From an uncultured Opitutales bacterium (GTDB lineage Bacteria > Verrucomicrobiota > Verrucomicrobiia > Opitutales > Intestinicryptomonadaceae): 64,000 nt of DNA. Under the pieces are notes generated by a model, which was given only the letters and a program-made list of their open reading frames with translations, was not told where the DNA came from and did no database searches. Positions 22,503 through 31,115 of the stretch are shown piece by piece. The stretch is from the NCBI GenBank assembly GCA_944389885.1, contig CALXNZ010000001.1:124001-188000 (forward strand), in the 5' to 3' direction. Made by a program: the position numbers and the translations under genes. Every line of letters begins with the position of its first letter. Position 1 is the stretch's first letter.

Positions 22503-23972
22503 TTACTTCTTTTTCCCGCGGCATTCCGCGCCGCGCTTTTTACTATTGGAATCATGCGACTTCATTCCCAACAATTCCCTCCAAGCCGCTATCTGGGAAT
22601 TCGTCTGCTCCAAACCCGGCATGCCAAACTTTTCGCGCATCGCAAAGGCTCTTTTTATGTCGAACACTTTGCGCCAATCGCAATCGGCCTCCGGACACAC
22701 CCCGAATACATCTTCGTCGGGCAATTCGTTTATCGGAACTTTTTTATTTTCGGAAAGGGCGACCAGCTTTCCCACCATATGGTGGGCCGTTCTGAAAGGA
22801 ACTCCGCGCATGACAAAATAATCAGCCAAATCTGTGGCAAGCAACAAAGGATCGGATACCGCCGCCGCGCACCGCCCCTGGTTGAATTTGATTTCCGCCG
22901 CGCACGCAGCCAATACGTCAACGCAAATAGACGCTTGCGCGTACGAATCGAATACCGCCGGTTTATCTTCCTGCAAATCTCTATTGTAAGTAAGCGGAAG
23001 CCCCTTCACCAAAACCAGCAGCGCGTTTAAATTGCCTATCATTCTGGCGGATTTTCCCCTCATGAGCTCCATTGAATCCGGATTTTTTTTCTGAGGCATC
23101 AATGAGGAACCCGTGGTAAATGAATCTGGCAATTTTACAAATCCGAATTCGGAAGAATTCCAAAGAATGACGTCTTCGGCTATACGCGAGAGATGAACTC
23201 CCAAAACGGCGCATGAAAACGCAAATTCAAAGAAGCAATCCCTATCTGATACGGCGTCCATACTATTGCCGGTGAGAATCGGCTCCCCGCTATCCGAATC
23301 CACGAAGCCCAAATATTCCGCAGAGCGGAAACGGTCAATCGGGAGGGTAGTTCCGGCTATGGCTCCGCTTCCAAGCGGCGAGACGTTTGCCCCGTCCGCG
23401 GCGAACGCAAATCTTTCACAATCGCGGGCCAGCATCTCCACCCACGCGAGGATATGGTGGGCTGCACTGACGGGCTGAGCCCTCTGTAAATGGGTATATC
23501 CGGGTATGAATATATTTCTTGCAGTGTCTGCGAGTTCCACGAGAGAGGCCATAAGAGCCCTGATTCTACCCGACATATCCGCGCATGCGGACTTGAAGAA
23601 CAGGCGCATATCTGTGGCCACTTGGTCGTTGCGGCTGCGAGCCGTATGAAGTTTCGCCGCCGCTGGAACCTCTGCGGTAAGGGCCTGTTCTATATTCATA
23701 TGGACGTCTTCCAATGATTCGTCCCACACAAAATCCCCGGATTTTATCTTTTTGAGAAGGCTCTCTAAGCCCTTTACTATTTGCGAACATTCGGAAGCGC
23801 TCAAGATTCCGACATCTCTCAACATTTTCGCATGGGCGCACGACCCACGCACATCAAACTCCGCCAGAGCCTTATCAAACGATACAGACTCTCCGAAACG
23901 CAACATAAGTTTGCTTGGCGGCTCGGAAAAACGCCCGCCCCAACTTGCCTGAGCATCTTTATTCTTTTTCAT
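22503..23972 (-). CDS. argH: Argininosuccinate lyase
   Basis: ArgH splits argininosuccinate into arginine and fumarate. The superfamily signature [12 protein letters not shown] is present (around residue 285), along with [13 protein letters not shown], which binds substrate, and [10 protein letters not shown]. The C-terminus extends about 20 residues past the usual end in a basic Lys/Arg-rich tail ([13 protein letters not shown]). It lies five bases after waaA and before obgE in a minus-strand run. Other arginine genes are not adjacent. Confidence 0.95.
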
Positions 23973-23977
23973 AAAAA

Positions 23978-25252
23978 CTAATTGCCCGTTAACATTTGCA
24001 CAACTTTATCCGTAGCCCCTATATTCGAGTCGTGCCATTTCTTTGCCCGATAAGCGGTCTCCGAACGTATATCGGGGAGCCCCGCAAGCCTCACGAGTTC
24101 CTCTACGGCCTGCTTGGCGTTTTCCACGCGAAAACACGCCTGTTCACGCTCCAAGGTTTTACAGACCCTTCTAAAATTGCTCATATTTGGCCCATATACC
24201 ATAGCCACTCCGAGCGCCGCGCATTCTATCGGAGTCTGGCCGCCGTTATTAGGAGGCAGACTTTTACCGATAAAAGCCATATCCGCTATTTGAGTCAGCA
24301 CGCCAAGTTCCCCGGTCGTATCGGCCAGATATATGAGCGTGCCGTCGGAAGCCTGTTTTGATTGGCTGCGCACATGATGCGGAAAGCATTCCAAAAGTTT
24401 TTTTATTTTTTCCCTTCGCTCGGCATGCCGCGGCACCAGCAGGAGACGGCAATCTATGCCCCTCGCCCGAATTTTAGACATAGCCTCTATCAGCATTTCC
24501 TCTTCGCCGGGCCATGTGGAGGAACCCAATAGCACCAGCGATTTTTCCGCAAAGCCCATTTCCCTTCTCAATGCCGCCTTACCTTCCAAAGACAGATTTA
24601 AACCGGGCTTCACATCGAACTTTAAATTGCCCGAACAAAATATTCTCCCGGAGGGGACACCCAACTTTATCATGCGGTCCATATCGAATTCCGACGACGC
24701 CGCAACCCGCTTAAATTTCTTTAGTATGCGCTCTGAAAGCCAAAGTACTTTTGAGTAGCGCGCAAAAGACTTATCCGACATTCTCGCATTTATGAGGTAC
24801 AACTCCGCCCTCCTGACGCTCGCCTGATGCATATGTTCCGGCCACATTTCCCCTTCCATTAAAACGGCTATATCGGGATTAAAATTATCCCACGTCCTCT
24901 TGCTGAAAGGATAAAAATCTATGGGAAATACCCCAACATAAAGGCATAGTCCGGCATATTTCTCCGTCAATATCCTGTATCCGGTGCTCGTCGTAGTCGT
25001 CACTATAATTTCGAGAGAGGGATTGGCAGCCAACTTCGACAAAAGGGGCCCTATCGCCTCGACTTCTCCCACGCTTACCGCCTGAATCCATATTCTGCGC
25101 TTGCCGGCCGATTTTTGGGGCAACGGTTTATGTCCGCCAAATCTATGGATAAAATCTCTCGAATATCCTCCGCGGCGCAACATGCGCCAGCCGTAGTACG
25201 GGAGAGCCGCAAGCAATGCGAACGGAAAAAGAAAGCGATAGAGAAATATCAT
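23978..25252 (-). CDS. waaA: 3-deoxy-D-manno-octulosonic acid (Kdo) transferase
   Basis: This GT30-family enzyme attaches Kdo to lipid A precursors on the cytoplasmic face of the inner membrane. An N-terminal membrane anchor (residues 3-22) precedes two Rossmann-like domains. Glu63 in VSVGEVEA is the expected catalytic base, and later [15 protein letters not shown] and [14 protein letters not shown] are family features. The ATG overlaps the ketosynthase stop by four bases (25249-25252). This gene is direct evidence that the cell makes lipopolysaccharide. Its coupling to acyl-chain genes hints that those also serve envelope lipid. Confidence 0.94.
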
Positions 25253-26511
25253 GGCTTCTCGAATAGAATCGCGGTATTGGCCCCTCCAAAACCGCTGCTT
25301 ATGGAAAGCGATATCTTTGGCGAACCAATCTTCGATTCCCTTATTACATTCAATCCTTCCGCTGCGGAATCCAATTCCGTTATATGCGCCGATCCCGGAA
25401 CAAAATCCCTATGCATTGAAAGAGCGCAGAATGCCGCCTCCATCACGCCGGAAAGTGATAGTCCGTGTCCCGTCAAAGCTTTCGTACTGCTTATCATCGC
25501 AGTACTGCCCTCTCCGAACACAGATTTTATGGCTTTCAATTCCGCCGCATCTCCCATCGGGGTGGACGTTGCATGGGCGTTGATGTATCCAACGTCGGAA
25601 GCTTTTATGCCGGCGTCGTCCAATGCCCGCTTCACGGCCATAACCACACCGTCGCCGTTGGGGTGCGGTATCGCGACGTTGTATCCGTCGCTCGCCTGCC
25701 CCCAACCGATTACGCGCGCGTATATGTCCGCGCCCCTGCTGCGCGCAAGCTCCTCGTCCTCAAGGACCAAAACGACGCCTCCGCCAGTGCCTACAAAACC
25801 GTCGCGATTTTTATCGAAAGGCCTTGAAGCGTTAGCAGGATCGGAATTCATACTCAACGCCCGCATTCCGGCAAAAGGCAGCAAAGTGTAATAGTCGCCG
25901 TCCTCGCCGCCAACCACGAACATTCTTGACTGCTTGCCCGAGGCAATTTCGTCGTATGCGAAACCCGCGGCGTGAGAGCTGCTCGCGCAGGCCGAAGCAA
26001 ATCCGCAGCTTGCGCCTTTTATTTTAAAAGCAGATACAAGATTGAATGAAAGCGTGCCAACGATTGAACAGATTATCGCGAAGGGGAAACTGCGCGTCAC
26101 CCCAACTTTGTCCATTCGTTTAAGATGATGGTACATCATGCCCGTAGAGCCTGCGGAAGCCGTGTACATGCCCGTCATAGGATTTGATATATCCTCAGGC
26201 GTAAGCTTGGCGCTTTCTATGGCCTGTTGCATCGCGCAATAAGCGTACAGGCAATGCGGGGCAAAAGAGCGCAAGACGTCGCGGCGCAAAGAATAGCGCG
26301 GCGGATATGTCCAGTCTTCCGGATCCGCGCTCGAACAGTCAAAATCTTTTATCGTACCAACGCACTTTACTGGAATTGCCGGATCGGCGAAAGGCGGATA
26401 GAGTTCTATGCCGTTTTTTAAATTGATTAAGCTATCTGCGACAGCGTCGGCGTCATTGCCTATGCTTGTCACAAATCCCATTCCCGTTATTACCACACTG
26501 CGCTTTTTCAT
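25249..26511 (-). CDS. Beta-ketoacyl-ACP synthase (FabF/FabB type)
   Basis: This condensing enzyme elongates an acyl chain bound to acyl carrier protein. The catalytic Cys175 (ASACASSS), His313 (NAHATST) and His349 with Lys344 (STKALTGHG) are all present, so it should be active. The 420-residue length is normal. Sequence details (STGMMYHH, ITGMGFVTSIG) differ from housekeeping FabF of model species. It sits between a FabZ-like dehydratase and a Kdo transferase, downstream of an exporter pair, and without acyl carrier protein, FabD or FabG. It may make a special acyl chain; ordinary fatty-acid synthesis is the alternative. Confidence 0.9.
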   Translation of the reverse strand: MKKRSVVITGMGFVTSIGNDADAVADSLINLKNGIELYPPFADPAIPVKCVGTIKDFDCSSADPEDWTYPPRYSLRRDVLRSFAPHCLYAYCAMQQAIESAKLTPEDISNPMTGMYTASAGSTGMMYHHLKRMDKVGVTRSFPFAIICSIVGTLSFNLVSAFKIKGASCGFASACASSSHAAGFAYDEIASGKQSRMFVVGGEDGDYYTLLPFAGMRALSMNSDPANASRPFDKNRDGFVGTGGGVVLVLEDEELARSRGADIYARVIGWGQASDGYNVAIPHPNGDGVVMAVKRALDDAGIKASDVGYINAHATSTPMGDAAELKAIKSVFGEGSTAMISSTKALTGHGLSLSGVMEAAFCALSMHRDFVPGSAHITELDSAAEGLNVIRESKIGSPKISLSISSGFGGANTAILFEKP

Positions 26512-26523
26512 TGTATTAAAGAA

Positions 26524-26988
26524 TTAGATTTTCAAATAATCGAATGTAAGGCATGTCTTTTCCACAAAGGCCGCGCGCTCCCCCGCGACCTCCATATGCC
26601 CCCTAAACGCCGCTATCGGATGCCTTAGGCGCACAGCCTCCGCCTTTACCTCCATTACATCTCCGGGCCTGCATATGCGCATAACCCGCGCCATCTCCAA
26701 CGATGTGACAAAAATTTTAGACGAATCAACCGGGCCGGCTATCTCCGGAACCGACGCCTTCAAGAGATACAACACCCCAAGTTGTCCGAATGCCTCCAGC
26801 ATTATCGTCCCGGGAAACACGGGATTATTTTTAAAATGCCCCCGCAAAAAATCTTCGTCACCTTTTATTTTATAGGTTCCGTAGGCTGTATATCCGTCTA
26901 TGACGGCGCTATCCAAAAAAAGGAAGGGGTCTTGCTGGGGCATTACCGCTTCTATTTCGGCTCTTGTGTATTTTTTAGGCTCGCTCAT
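26524..26988 (-). CDS. FabZ-like 3-hydroxyacyl-ACP dehydratase
   Basis: This is a single hotdog-fold protein of 154 residues. MPQQDPFLFLD and GHFKNNPVFPG are the FabZ signatures, with the catalytic His at 51 and Glu at 65. It would dehydrate 3-hydroxyacyl-ACP. I set the start at ATG 26988, ten bases after the permease stop; the longer reading overlaps the permease gene. The gene lies directly before the ketosynthase (12-base gap), so the two probably act on the same acyl-ACP. Confidence 0.9.
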   Translation of the reverse strand: MSEPKKYTRAEIEAVMPQQDPFLFLDSAVIDGYTAYGTYKIKGDEDFLRGHFKNNPVFPGTIMLEAFGQLGVLYLLKASVPEIAGPVDSSKIFVTSLEMARVMRICRPGDVMEVKAEAVRLRHPIAAFRGHMEVAGERAAFVEKTCLTFDYLKI

Positions 26989-26998
26989 GTTTTGTTTA

Positions 26999-28195
26999 TC
27001 AAAATATATCCGCAGGATTTGCCCTGCGCAATTTGCGGGTTGCAAGGAGTCCTGCGGCCATGCACATGGCAAGAGACAATCCGAATACTATAAGCATATC
27101 CGCACCGCTCATGTACGTCGGCATATTCGCGATGTCCCGCGTCATTTTATAAAGTATCGCCGAAAGTCCGACTCCCGGTATAAAACCCAGAAACGACAAT
27201 ATCAGCGACTCCTGCAATATTATTGAAATGAAAAAAGTGTCGTCGAAACCTATTGCCTTAAGCGTAGCATATTCCGGAATGTGCTCGGATACGTCCGTAT
27301 AAAGTATCTGATAGACTATAACCGCCCCCACAAATATCGCCACAGCCATAGACGCCCCTATAACAAAGCCTATCGGAGTCCTGACTGCCCAGTAATCTTT
27401 TTCGGCCTCGATAAAATCTGTCTTGCTCATAACGCGCACATCGTCCGGAAACATCTCATTCAAACGCCCCACTGCGGATTCCACGTCGGAGCCCTCCTTT
27501 AATTTTATTACACCCACATCGTAAACGCCCATTGGCATATTTGGCCAAATCAGGGAATAAGTGTCGAGGCTCATCAACACGTTTCCGTCGGCGGCAAAAG
27601 TCGCCCCTATTTCGACGAGTCCCACTATGTCGCATTTTACCCCCGACAACTCCGTGCGCAGAAATTTCCCGCCGCGCTCGTTGAAAATCTCCTCTACGCG
27701 TCCATATTGGTCGCGGGACTGCGCGTCAAAAAGAATATCTCCCCTGCGCTTGAGCAGTCCTTGATTCCGTTTTATTTCCGGAGCCAGAAATACGTCTTTT
27801 GACGGATCAAACGCGATTGCGAATATATCGCGCTCGCGCCCGTCTTCTACATTTTTAAATGACATGCAGCCAAGTTTTATTCCGTTCGCCGACACAACTT
27901 CATTCAGAGAATACGCCTGCGAAAGCCTTACCGCGGGAAATCCCCGCCCCACCCCGAAATACTCGTAATTCGGGCTTACCAGGACAACATCGGCGTCGAG
28001 CATAACCAGCGGCCCAACAACTTGTCTGTAAAGAGCCCTTTGCAGCCCCATTTGGAAAAGCATCATTGTCACCGCAAAAGTGATGCCCGCCAATGCCACG
28101 GCAAAACGTTTGCGTTCGCTTGTAAGCTGCATCCACGCTATGGGAATTCCCAAGGGGATAACGCGCTCGTAAAGACTCTTTTTTCCTTTTGCCAC
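26999..28195 (-). CDS. ABC transporter permease, DevC/MacB-like
   Basis: This 398-residue permease has an N-terminal membrane helix (about 32-52), a large periplasmic domain and three C-terminal helices (about 275-300, 320-350 and 365-385), the topology of FtsX/MacB-type exporters. The overall pattern matches DevC, the permease of the DevBCA glycolipid exporter in cyanobacteria. It directly follows the HlyD/DevB-like adaptor gene. The expected ATPase (DevA) is not next to it or recognisable elsewhere in the window. The following ketosynthase and dehydratase genes suggest a lipid cargo. Confidence 0.88.
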   Translation of the reverse strand: MAKGKKSLYERVIPLGIPIAWMQLTSERKRFAVALAGITFAVTMMLFQMGLQRALYRQVVGPLVMLDADVVLVSPNYEYFGVGRGFPAVRLSQAYSLNEVVSANGIKLGCMSFKNVEDGRERDIFAIAFDPSKDVFLAPEIKRNQGLLKRRGDILFDAQSRDQYGRVEEIFNERGGKFLRTELSGVKCDIVGLVEIGATFAADGNVLMSLDTYSLIWPNMPMGVYDVGVIKLKEGSDVESAVGRLNEMFPDDVRVMSKTDFIEAEKDYWAVRTPIGFVIGASMAVAIFVGAVIVYQILYTDVSEHIPEYATLKAIGFDDTFFISIILQESLILSFLGFIPGVGLSAILYKMTRDIANMPTYMSGADMLIVFGLSLAMCMAAGLLATRKLRRANPADIF

Positions 28196-28205
28196 AAAGC
28201 TTCTA

Positions 28206-29156
28206 TTACGCTTTATCAGTAAGTATGCGCACGTTTACCTGCGAACCGATAAGTCCTTTAAATTTCTGCGGATTATCAAGCCTTATCTTTACCACTACGA
28301 CCCGCAGGTTGGAATACGCCCCAGGATCCGTGCTGAATATTCTGTTGCTGCGAACAAAATTCGATATTTCCGTTACGGTTCCAGAAAAACGCTCCTGGCC
28401 CAACGCATCTGAAAAAATCTCGGCCTTATCCCCCACTTTTATTTTAGAAACGTCCGACACATACACTTCGGCATCGACATACATGCTATTTGTATCGGCT
28501 ATTTCGCATATACCCTCCATGCCCACCGCTTCTCCGACCCTTATGTGGGTTTCCACCACAACGCCGGAAATCGGCGCCTTTACAAAATGACCTTCATACG
28601 CGAGTTCAGATTCTTTTAAGGCCGTTTTCGCCTCGTTGACAATGGCGGTTTCATTCTTTTCTACAAGCGGCAGCATGGCTTTTGCCTGCGATATTCTACG
28701 CGACAGGGATTCTTGTTCATACTCCAGTTGCTCGCGCTCGCGGCGCGGAGGGTCTTTTTCGTCTATGACTTTTTGATTCTGGGCGAAAGTGCCCTCCAAG
28801 TCCGCAATCAAATTTTTCTGCTGGAGGATTTTAATGTCGCGGGCCGATTCTGCGACAGCAAGCGCGGCTTTAGCCCTTTCAACAGCCGACTTTGCCCGTT
28901 CATGTCCTTTTATTGACGCCACAACGGAATTTTTTTCCACCTTGTCTCCGCGCGCCACATTCAAGCTGTCCACGATGCACTGCGTTCCCGAAAGAGATTC
29001 CGCCGCCAACTTCGAGACTCTCGCCCCGGGCACCACCTTGCCAAGACACGCCACCGCATTAGTTGAATCCGCATCTTGCGCATATACCTGCATTACCGTC
29101 AACACGCAAAAAGCCGCGCACGCAAAAAGGGTATTAGATTTTTTCATAAGCCACAT
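28206..29156 (-). CDS. HlyD/DevB-like periplasmic adaptor
   Basis: This is a membrane-fusion protein with an N-terminal signal peptide or anchor (about residues 4-26), a lipoyl/barrel-sandwich half (PGARVSKLAAE, DSLNVARGDKV), a long coiled coil (about 95-210) and a second half (FVKAPISGVVVETHIRVGEAV). It should link an inner-membrane exporter to an outer-membrane channel such as TolC. The start is ATG 29156; an ATG three codons later (29147, MKKSN) gives a more usual signal peptide. It is first in the run adaptor-permease-dehydratase-ketosynthase-waaA-argH-obgE. Confidence 0.88.
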   Translation of the reverse strand: MWLMKKSNTLFACAAFCVLTVMQVYAQDADSTNAVACLGKVVPGARVSKLAAESLSGTQCIVDSLNVARGDKVEKNSVVASIKGHERAKSAVERAKAALAVAESARDIKILQQKNLIADLEGTFAQNQKVIDEKDPPRREREQLEYEQESLSRRISQAKAMLPLVEKNETAIVNEAKTALKESELAYEGHFVKAPISGVVVETHIRVGEAVGMEGICEIADTNSMYVDAEVYVSDVSKIKVGDKAEIFSDALGQERFSGTVTEISNFVRSNRIFSTDPGAYSNLRVVVVKIRLDNPQKFKGLIGSQVNVRILTDKA

Positions 29157-29393: not shown

Positions 29394-30398
29394 CTATTTT
29401 CCCATAGCCTCTTCGACAGCCACGGCAACAGCGACAGTCGCACCAACCATAGGATTATTGCCCATTCCAATAAGCCCCATCATTTCAACGTGGGCCGGAA
29501 CTGACGATGATCCAGCGAATTGAGCGTCGCCATGCATTCTGCCCATGGTGTCCGTCATACCGTACGAGGCCGGGCCTGCGGCCATATTATCCGGATGCAG
29601 GGTTCTGCCCGTACCGCCGCCGGAAGCCACTGAAAAATATTTTTTCCCGTGCTCAATGGCCCACTTCTTATATGTTCCCGCAACAGGATGCTGGAATCTT
29701 GTGGGATTGGTCGAATTTCCGGTGATGGATACGTCCACGCCTTCTTTTATCATAATGGCAACACCCTCAGAGACGTCGTCGGCGCCGTACACGCGAACTT
29801 TTGCCTTTTCGCCCTTTGAGAACGGAGTTTCCTTGGTTATTTTAAGTTCTCCGGTGGCGTAGTCATATTCGGTCTCGACGCTTGTAAACCCGTTTATGCG
29901 GGATATTATGTATGCGGCGTCTTTGCCCAATCCGTTAAGGATTACGCGAAGGGGGGTTTTGCGGACCTTATTGGCTGTGCGGGCTATGCCTATTGCCCCT
30001 TCGGCAGCCGCGAAGCTCTCGTGGCCGGCCAGGAAGCAGAAGCACTGGGTTTCCTCGCGCAGGAGCATTGCTCCAAGATTGCCGTGGCCCAATCCAACCT
30101 CGCGCGAATCTGCCACTGAACCGGGAATGCAGAAGGCCTGCAGACCTTTGCCGATATTTTCGGCGGCTTCGGCGGCGCTTTTGCTGCCGAGCTTGATGGC
30201 GATAGCCGCGCCGAGCGTATATGCCCATACAGCATTTTCAAATGCTATCGGCTGTATACCTTTCACTATGGCGTCAACATCAATGCCTTTGGAATCGCAA
30301 AGGGACTTGGCGTCTTCCAAGGATTTCAATCCGTACTGGGCGCAAACCTTATTGATTTTGTCTATGCGCCTGTCATAACTTTCAAATGTGATAGACAT
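29394..30398 (-). CDS. GGGtGRT family protein
   Basis: This 334-residue soluble protein carries the name-giving motif GGGTGRT at residues 260-266, followed by LHPDNMAAGPASYGMTDTMGRMHGD. The protein is rich in Gly and Ala, with conserved-looking segments such as GLGHGNLGAMLLREETQ (103-119) and GIQPIAFENAVWAYTLG. Family members are known from many bacteria without a defined function and are often found next to a NifU-like scaffold, as here (9-base gap). A GGAG ribosome site precedes the ATG. The glycine loop could bind a nucleotide or phosphate, which is speculation. A terminator follows. Confidence 0.9.
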   Translation of the reverse strand: MSITFESYDRRIDKINKVCAQYGLKSLEDAKSLCDSKGIDVDAIVKGIQPIAFENAVWAYTLGAAIAIKLGSKSAAEAAENIGKGLQAFCIPGSVADSREVGLGHGNLGAMLLREETQCFCFLAGHESFAAAEGAIGIARTANKVRKTPLRVILNGLGKDAAYIISRINGFTSVETEYDYATGELKITKETPFSKGEKAKVRVYGADDVSEGVAIMIKEGVDVSITGNSTNPTRFQHPVAGTYKKWAIEHGKKYFSVASGGGTGRTLHPDNMAAGPASYGMTDTMGRMHGDAQFAGSSSVPAHVEMMGLIGMGNNPMVGATVAVAVAVEEAMGK

Positions 30399-30407
30399 TT
30401 TCCACTC

Positions 30408-31115
30408 CTATTCTTTGCGGGGATCAATAACCTTTACGGCGTCTTCAAAACGACCTTTTACAGACGTAAACTTTTTGAGGGCTTCGTTGGCGTCCATTCC
30501 ATTCTTTATGGCCTCGAGCATTTTGCCCAAGTGGACGGTCTTGTAGCCTATTACTTCGTTGTTTTCGTCGAGACCTTCTTCCAAGACGTATCCTTCAGCC
30601 ATTTCGAGATAGCGGGGACCCTTCTCTTTTGTGGAGAACATTGTTCCGACCTGGGAGCGCAGGCCTTTTCCCAAGTCCTCCAAACCGGCTCCTATTGGAA
30701 GTCCATTTTCAGAAAACGCGGTTTGGGTTCTGCCGTAAACTATTTGGAGAAAGAGTTCGCGCATTGCCACGTTTATGGCGTCGCAGACGAGGTCGCTGTT
30801 CAGGGCTTCGAGGATTGTCTTTCCAGGAAGAATTTCCGCGGCCATTGCGGCGGAATGGGTCATTCCGGAACAACCCAAAGTTTCCACCAGCGCTTCTTCT
30901 ATTACACCTTCTTTGACATTTAAGGTCAACTTGCAAGCTCCCTGCTGGGGAGCGCACCAGCCGACGCCGTGCGTAAGCCCGCTGACGTCGCGGATTTCTT
31001 TGGACTTTACCCATTTCCCTTCTTCGGGTATGGGGGCCGGCCCGTGTTTTGCGCCTTTCGCAACGCAGCACATCTGCTGTACTTCATGCGAGCAATTATG
31101 ATTGGGACAACTCAT
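30408..31115 (-). CDS. NifU/IscU-like iron-sulfur scaffold protein
   Basis: This 235-residue protein has an IscU/NifU-N-like core (about residues 60-125) with GCSGMTHSA, where Cys82 aligns with an IscU cluster ligand, and Cys111; Cys54 or Cys61 could be the third ligand. A Cys/His-rich N-terminus (Cys3, His6, Cys8, His10, Cys16, Cys17) is an extension not seen in IscU and may bind metal. A C-terminal region of about 100 residues has no recognised fold. It is the first gene of a two-gene operon with the GGGtGRT protein. No cysteine desulfurase lies near, so its sulfur source is unknown. Confidence 0.85.
   Translation of the reverse strand: MSCPNHNCSHEVQQMCCVAKGAKHGPAPIPEEGKWVKSKEIRDVSGLTHGVGWCAPQQGACKLTLNVKEGVIEEALVETLGCSGMTHSAAMAAEILPGKTILEALNSDLVCDAINVAMRELFLQIVYGRTQTAFSENGLPIGAGLEDLGKGLRSQVGTMFSTKEKGPRYLEMAEGYVLEEGLDENNEVIGYKTVHLGKMLEAIKNGMDANEALKKFTSVKGRFEDAVKVIDPRKE

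Follow-up and report, generated by a model that had tools for sequence, protein, structure and literature searches.

The 64,000-nucleotide stretch of DNA analyzed here (the window; positions 124,001 to 188,000 of the forward strand of contig CALXNZ010000001.1, assembly GCA_944389885.1) comes from an uncultured Opitutales bacterium of the gut family Intestinicryptomonadaceae, hereafter the family, which includes this source genome (2.21 Mb, 27 contigs, 95.9% complete). A run of five close-packed genes on its reverse strand encodes a DevB-like adaptor protein, a DevC-like permease, a FabZ-like dehydratase (DH), a beta-ketoacyl-acyl carrier protein (ACP) synthase, or ketosynthase (KS), and a WaaA-like transferase of 3-deoxy-D-manno-oct-2-ulosonic acid (Kdo) (Table 1). 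A preliminary description of this sequence had listed these genes, and all five were recovered in the order and place given; it had also remarked that DevA and an ACP are missing locally, and neither lies at the locus. The gaps between devB and devC and between devC and the DH gene are 10 bp each, and that between the DH and KS genes is 12 bp; the KS gene and waaA overlap by 4 bp, and waaA is separated by 5 bp from argH, beyond which the run continues with obg. Because the spacing ranges from a 4-bp overlap to 12-bp gaps, co-transcription of the whole run in the source genome appears plausible; promoter-like and terminator-like sites in the region showed no excess over shuffled sequence. The DH was taken to start at the ATG at 26988, the start at 27072 in the open reading frame list being an upstream TTG inside devC.

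Table 1 Genes of the run and the unlinked ACP gene of the source genome
Feature	Position	Strand	Match or remark
DevB-like, DevB-family membrane-fusion (adaptor) protein	28206-29156	-	TIGR02971
DevC-like, DevC-family FtsX-type permease	26999-28195	-	TIGR01185
DH, FabZ-like hotdog dehydratase, 154 aa	26524-26988	-	PF07977
KS, FabB/FabF-like beta-ketoacyl-ACP synthase	25249-26511	-	PF00109/PF02801
WaaA/KdtA-like Kdo transferase	23978-25252	-	PF04413 (Glycos_transf_N)
argH	22503-23972	-	directly 3' of waaA
Stand-alone ACP gene, 120 aa	G000 (source genome), contig C3:130335-130697 (= L027:4336-4698)		alignment with the ACP half of the ACP-DH fusion

Nineteen family genomes were searched. For one of them (G009), the searches for DevC, KS, WaaA, serine palmitoyltransferase (SPT) and GT28 glycosyltransferase all came back empty, and it was counted as uninformative and not as truly lacking these genes. 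KS and WaaA were each found in 18 of the 19 genomes, and DevC in 17. Wherever KS was found (18 genomes), WaaA comes directly after it in the same orientation; for G015, this adjacency was deduced from the contig carrying WaaA, which includes an end fragment of KS. DH precedes KS in 17/17 genomes whose contig reaches far enough; G012, whose contig begins inside KS, was left out of the latter count. The upstream flanks of the three genes vary between genomes while DH-KS-WaaA stays: the upstream neighbor is presumably a DNA-glycosylase-like gene in five genomes and a NAD-kinase-like gene in five, with other genes elsewhere. The conserved unit in the family is DH-KS-WaaA, not DevBC. The earlier view of the close-packed group as one system is therefore retained for this trio, whose linkage recurs in the relatives, and is given up for DevBC, which is its neighbor in the source genome only.

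All three members of the trio carry the expected domains above cut-off (KS, PF00109/PF02801, 102.6/117.3 bits against 20.8; DH, PF07977, 52.7 bits against 23; WaaA, PF04413, 171 against 23.9 bits), and all three match the corresponding NCBIfam equivalog below its cut-off (FabF/FabB for KS, 327 bits against 630; FabZ for DH, 72 against 113; Kdo transferase for WaaA, 270 against 438). WaaA is the sole match to its own protein in the source genome at E <= 1e-15. When 15 KS and 16 DH sequences of the family were aligned, residues Cys175, His313, Lys344 and His349 of KS and the His/Glu pair of DH were invariant; we assume for them the catalytic roles described for FabB, FabF and FabZ. Among PDB matches, FabB ranked over FabF for KS, and FabZ was matched by DH; a PDB profile search based on the KS alignment yielded no match at the threshold of E <= 1e-100, which was too strict.

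When 19 KS sequences were placed in a tree, those of Opitutae formed one clade (100/100), separate from a group of three FabB sequences (92/85) and from a group of six FabF sequences (100/100) that includes FabO of E. faecalis and the FabF encoded on contig C8 of the source genome. The window KS shares 38-41% identity with FabB and 31-36% with FabF. By sequence, KS belongs to an Opitutae-specific clade, and a plain FabB or FabF was rejected on account of the separate 100/100 clade, with three FabB references in the tree. The Opitutae DH, whether fused to an ACP or free, likewise formed one clade (99/99) when 18 DH sequences were compared, apart from the FabA and FabZ references, although this tree has long branches and is to be read with caution. 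With the same caution, FabA and FabN were rejected as identities of DH on the basis of this tree and of its FabZ-type His/Glu pair, in place of the His/Asp of FabA. The E. faecalis reference pair was taken to be FabO-FabN; its records bear the names fabF and fabZ.

Further fatty-acid genes are present elsewhere in the source genome. Contig C8 carries another FabF together with an ACP (acpP-fabF), and contig C4 an LpxC-FabZ fusion, in which the dehydratase domain was found by search and the LpxC part is presumed from the 480-aa frame. Because these genes lie elsewhere, KS and DH of the window are not the general fatty-acid genes, and a housekeeping role for them was rejected; the lack of a second housekeeping fabF/fabZ, which the preliminary description had named as evidence against its view, is not what the genome shows. 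There are three FabA/FabZ-type domains in total, among which no FabA was recognized, and the third belongs to a DH on contig C2. That DH, which is FabZ-like, is part of a cluster at about 150-166 kb (L025:7377-18675, L026:2351-2794) that we presume to be aryl-polyene-like, and which also encodes two multi-KS proteins (1238 and 709 aa), a 1090-aa fusion of MMPL and acyltransferase domains, a FabH-like protein and two ACPs; the 1238-aa protein has a B12-binding domain and a sub-cut-off radical S-adenosylmethionine match ahead of its KS domains.

A wider scan was made with the family KS alignment, using one genome per species, and the best 80 of 256 relatives were kept. Thirteen of these 80 loci (L130-L142) belong to the gut family, at least partly on the same contigs as the family genomes, and are not independent. 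Nearly all of the best 80 loci are from Opitutae or unclassified Verrucomicrobia. Upstream sequence of 1.5 kb or more is available for 71 loci; DH adjoins KS in 66 of them, the five with no adjacent DH being L169, L173, L184, L188 and L199. Where an adjacent DH is present outside the gut family, it is fused behind an ACP in 55/55 loci (PF00550 + PF07977 in an example protein), while the 11 gut-family loci are without ACP. Judged from the sequences, the DH of the window is an orthologue of the DH half of this Opitutae ACP-DH fusion. At L173 (Geminisphaera colitermitum TAV2), an ACP-DH gene lies approximately 5 kb downstream of KS on the other strand, and L154 also holds a KS copy, with an upstream stretch too short to judge DH.

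In 73 loci, the sequence extends 1.5 kb or more downstream of KS. Among these, a short-chain dehydrogenase (45/73) and a GT28 glycosyltransferase (44/73) lie within 1 kb of KS on the same strand, and a second glycosyltransferase (42/73) and an SPT-like pyridoxal phosphate (PLP) enzyme (23/73) within 8 kb. WaaA is present in 11 loci, all from the gut family. The best NCBIfam matches, which are to be taken as hints to a name, are diglucosyl diacylglycerol synthase for the GT28 protein (81 bits, cut-off 500) and serine palmitoyltransferase for the PLP enzyme (NF047600; 389 bits, cut-off 640). The tie of KS and DH to envelope-lipid genes that the preliminary description had suggested thus extends to other Opitutae, in which the same KS and DH are found beside lipid-type glycosyltransferases, and these partners point to a glycolipid chain as the common denominator.

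The SPT-like enzyme near KS in almost a third of these loci could point to a sphingolipid-like glycolipid whose acyl part is supplied by the module. In the family, however, no SPT orthologue was found, the best matches having 26-33% identity in 14 of the 19 genomes (28% in the source genome), and the GT28 gene matched in 0/19. For the gut family, this explanation was therefore rejected; we consider it improbable overall, and unlikely to hold for this window.

Since DH is fused to ACP in other Opitutae, the ACPs of the source genome were compared with the ACP half of the fusion. The ACP half from L179 was aligned with five ACP genes, using 200 shuffles; a sixth ACP-like domain, inside an 856-aa protein on contig C13, was left out. 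The stand-alone ACP encoded on contig C3 aligned over its full length, including the N-terminal extension, with a score of 343 and a z value of 51.7, and the four others gave z values of 1.0, 5.8, 6.5 and 10.9. The C25 ACP was rejected as a partner at z 1.0. The C3 ACP is, on this alignment, an orthologue of the ACP half of the Opitutae fusion, so that a candidate dedicated ACP, missing at the locus, is present elsewhere in the genome. No C3-type ACP was seen in the fetched trio and DevBC loci of the family. The C3 ACP gene is isolated, with a gene of opposite orientation on one side and an operon for an ATP-binding cassette (ABC) transporter on the other; in the source genome, it is directly followed by the run of transporter ATPase and permease genes (L027:4336-5795).

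These results bear on two further explanations of the trio. According to the first, which is the main rival and which we regard as rather unlikely, DH and KS are an anaerobic unsaturated-fatty-acid pair, like FabA-FabB or the enterococcal FabN-FabO. The greater identity of KS to FabB, the DH-then-KS order shared with alphaproteobacterial fabA-fabB-fabI operons, the small number of FabA/FabZ-type domains in the source genome and the retention of KS throughout the family (18 of 18 informative genomes) agree with such a role, and assigning isomerases in anaerobes is known to be difficult (PMC2700279). Against it, DH has the FabZ His/Glu pair, falls outside FabA and is separate from E. faecalis FabN in the tree, and a dedicated ACP would be unexpected for bulk unsaturated acids. 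Moreover, w7 unsaturated acids mark the FabA/FabB-type route, and w9 acids are not its product. Cerasicoccus (L207) has the ACP-DH/KS pair, while the main unsaturated acid of Cerasicoccaceae is reported to be C18:1 w9c (PMC10288369). According to the second explanation, the trio is a chance operon, and KS and DH are redundant enzymes of fatty-acid synthesis, with which their ordinary catalytic residues are in agreement; we hold this to be improbable, as the order of the trio is kept against changing flanks and its enzymes have clades and an ACP of their own.

DevB and DevC are both above the NCBIfam cut-offs of their families (TIGR02971, 154.3 bits against 129; TIGR01185, 329 bits against 290), and in relatives, DevB stays beside DevC, away from the trio. 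No KS or WaaA match was found in DevB-DevC loci from 15 relatives, some of them short, and the only two DH matches in these loci (28-29% identity) were taken to be LpxC-FabZ; nor was DevB or DevC found in 18 trio loci from 17 relatives, some of which are also short. In four relatives (G008, G010, G012 and G018), DevB and DevC are followed directly by ArgH, and in G018 by ArgH and Obg. The trio of the source genome therefore sits inside a devBC-argH run, and we infer that the direction of change was its placement between devC and argH. Upstream of devB, two genes (29394-31115, reverse strand) are presumably those of a GGGtGRT-type protein and of a NifU-like scaffold. For the GGGtGRT-type gene, the fetched DevBC and trio loci of relatives held no match. 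Within the phylum, the KS profile matched 39 of 288 genomes at E <= 1e-100, 33 of them being the source genome or members of its order, and DevC matched 12 at E <= 1e-50, nine shared with KS; 30 of the 39 genomes with KS are hence without a DevC match, although this comparison is rough, as thresholds and query types differ.

The idea that DevBC exports a lipid made by KS and DH, joining synthesis and export in one system, had been put forward in the preliminary description. It agrees with the 10-bp gaps and the plausible co-transcription in the source genome, and with a strong DevA candidate on contig C12, beside rplI and not linked to devBC, which scored 282 bits, just under the cut-off of 295.8. 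Pairs resembling DevBC that lack a local ATPase are also known, such as HgdBC of Anabaena (PMC6161253). Against these points, DevBC lies away from the trio in 15/15 relatives, DevB or DevC was found within 8 kb downstream of KS in 0/73 Opitutae loci, and most KS-bearing genomes of the phylum show no DevC match. We consider this coupling very improbable, and as a conserved system it is largely refuted; a want of conserved linkage in relatives is the outcome that the preliminary description had itself named as speaking against its proposal, and for the DevBC half it was observed. DevBC is an independent ABC-exporter pair and a lineage-specific neighbor of the trio, not part of the conserved unit.

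Our findings make it probable that a dedicated module of ACP, DH and KS makes a special chain of an envelope lipid and is coupled in the gut family to Kdo-lipid A. The predicted gene identities, the conserved trio, the Opitutae fusion, the ACP orthologue and the separate housekeeping fatty-acid genes, all drawn from sequence comparison, argue for such a module, and its enzymatic activity, chain type and acceptor lipid are proposed as follows. The DH-KS pair would act as an acyl-chain elongation module on its own ACP, the product of the C3 gene: KS would extend acyl-ACP with malonyl units, DH would remove water from the 3-hydroxyacyl-ACP, and general enzymes would supply the keto and enoyl reductions. 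The special chain would go to an envelope glycolipid. As waaA is the sole constant partner in the gut family, the chain is placed on the Kdo-lipid A branch, the likeliest acceptor there, for example as a secondary chain that is attached once Kdo has been transferred. Elsewhere in Opitutae, the ACP-DH fusion, KS and a short-chain dehydrogenase would be locked to lipid-type glycosyltransferases, and in the source genome, the trio would merely happen to occupy the devBC operon. The scheme first outlined for this locus, in which a special acyl chain is built, put on an envelope lipid and exported, is thus kept with respect to the predicted chain module and dropped with respect to export by DevBC.

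Several observations weigh against this interpretation. No acyltransferase is linked to the trio, the LpxL-type matches of the source genome being found only on contigs C9 and C2, fused there to a GT9 and an MMPL domain, respectively. The trio has no ketoreductase, and the C3 ACP gene is unlinked to it. It is also conceivable that waaA is no more than a passenger of the operon; WaaA stands beside KS in 0/62 non-gut loci that extend 1.5 kb or more downstream. The open-access literature yielded no lipid data on this organism and nothing on this gene arrangement in Opitutae. The C9 protein (L266:436-2346, reverse strand; 636 aa) combines an LpxL-type lipid A acyltransferase domain (PF03279) with a GT9 heptosyltransferase-like domain.

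More tentatively, Opitutae may own an undescribed envelope-lipid pathway in which the ACP-DH fusion and the KS of a separate clade work together with a reductase and with lipid glycosyltransferases. The gut family would have split this pathway, freeing the ACP and losing the glycosyltransferases and the SPT-like enzyme, and would have re-coupled it to Kdo-lipid A through DH-KS-WaaA moving as one piece. The open-access papers searched have little on the outer-membrane acyl chemistry of these bacteria, and a dedicated ACP/DH/KS set in nearly every family genome, and mainly in Opitutales, would offer four genes as a direct handle on it. Recognition of the exporter as a mere neighbor corrects the tempting account of a glycolipid exporter of the cyanobacterial type.

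Compared with known systems, the locus resembles the cyanobacterial DevBCA-TolC exporter of heterocyst glycolipids in its DevB and DevC, but the source genome has no linked DevA, and there is no conserved link to lipid genes. With fabA-fabB(-fabI) operons, the trio has in common the gene order and a KS nearest to FabB; it differs in its FabZ-type DH, in a KS outside the FabB clade and in having waaA, not fabI, as the third gene. The closest described analogue of the Opitutales module appears to be the rhizobial acpXL-fabZXL-fabF2XL-fabF1XL-adhXL-lpxXL cluster for the very-long-chain fatty acid of lipid A, which likewise has a dedicated ACP, a FabZ-like DH and FabF/B-like KS apart from housekeeping fatty-acid synthesis and is tied to lipid A (PMC11901934). 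The Opitutales trio has one KS instead of two and no linked dehydrogenase or LpxXL acyltransferase; its ACP is encoded elsewhere, or in relatives as a fusion with DH, and DH and KS are linked to waaA. The likeness is one of gene content, and on this footing, we propose the rhizobial cluster as the model to which the Opitutales module may best be compared.

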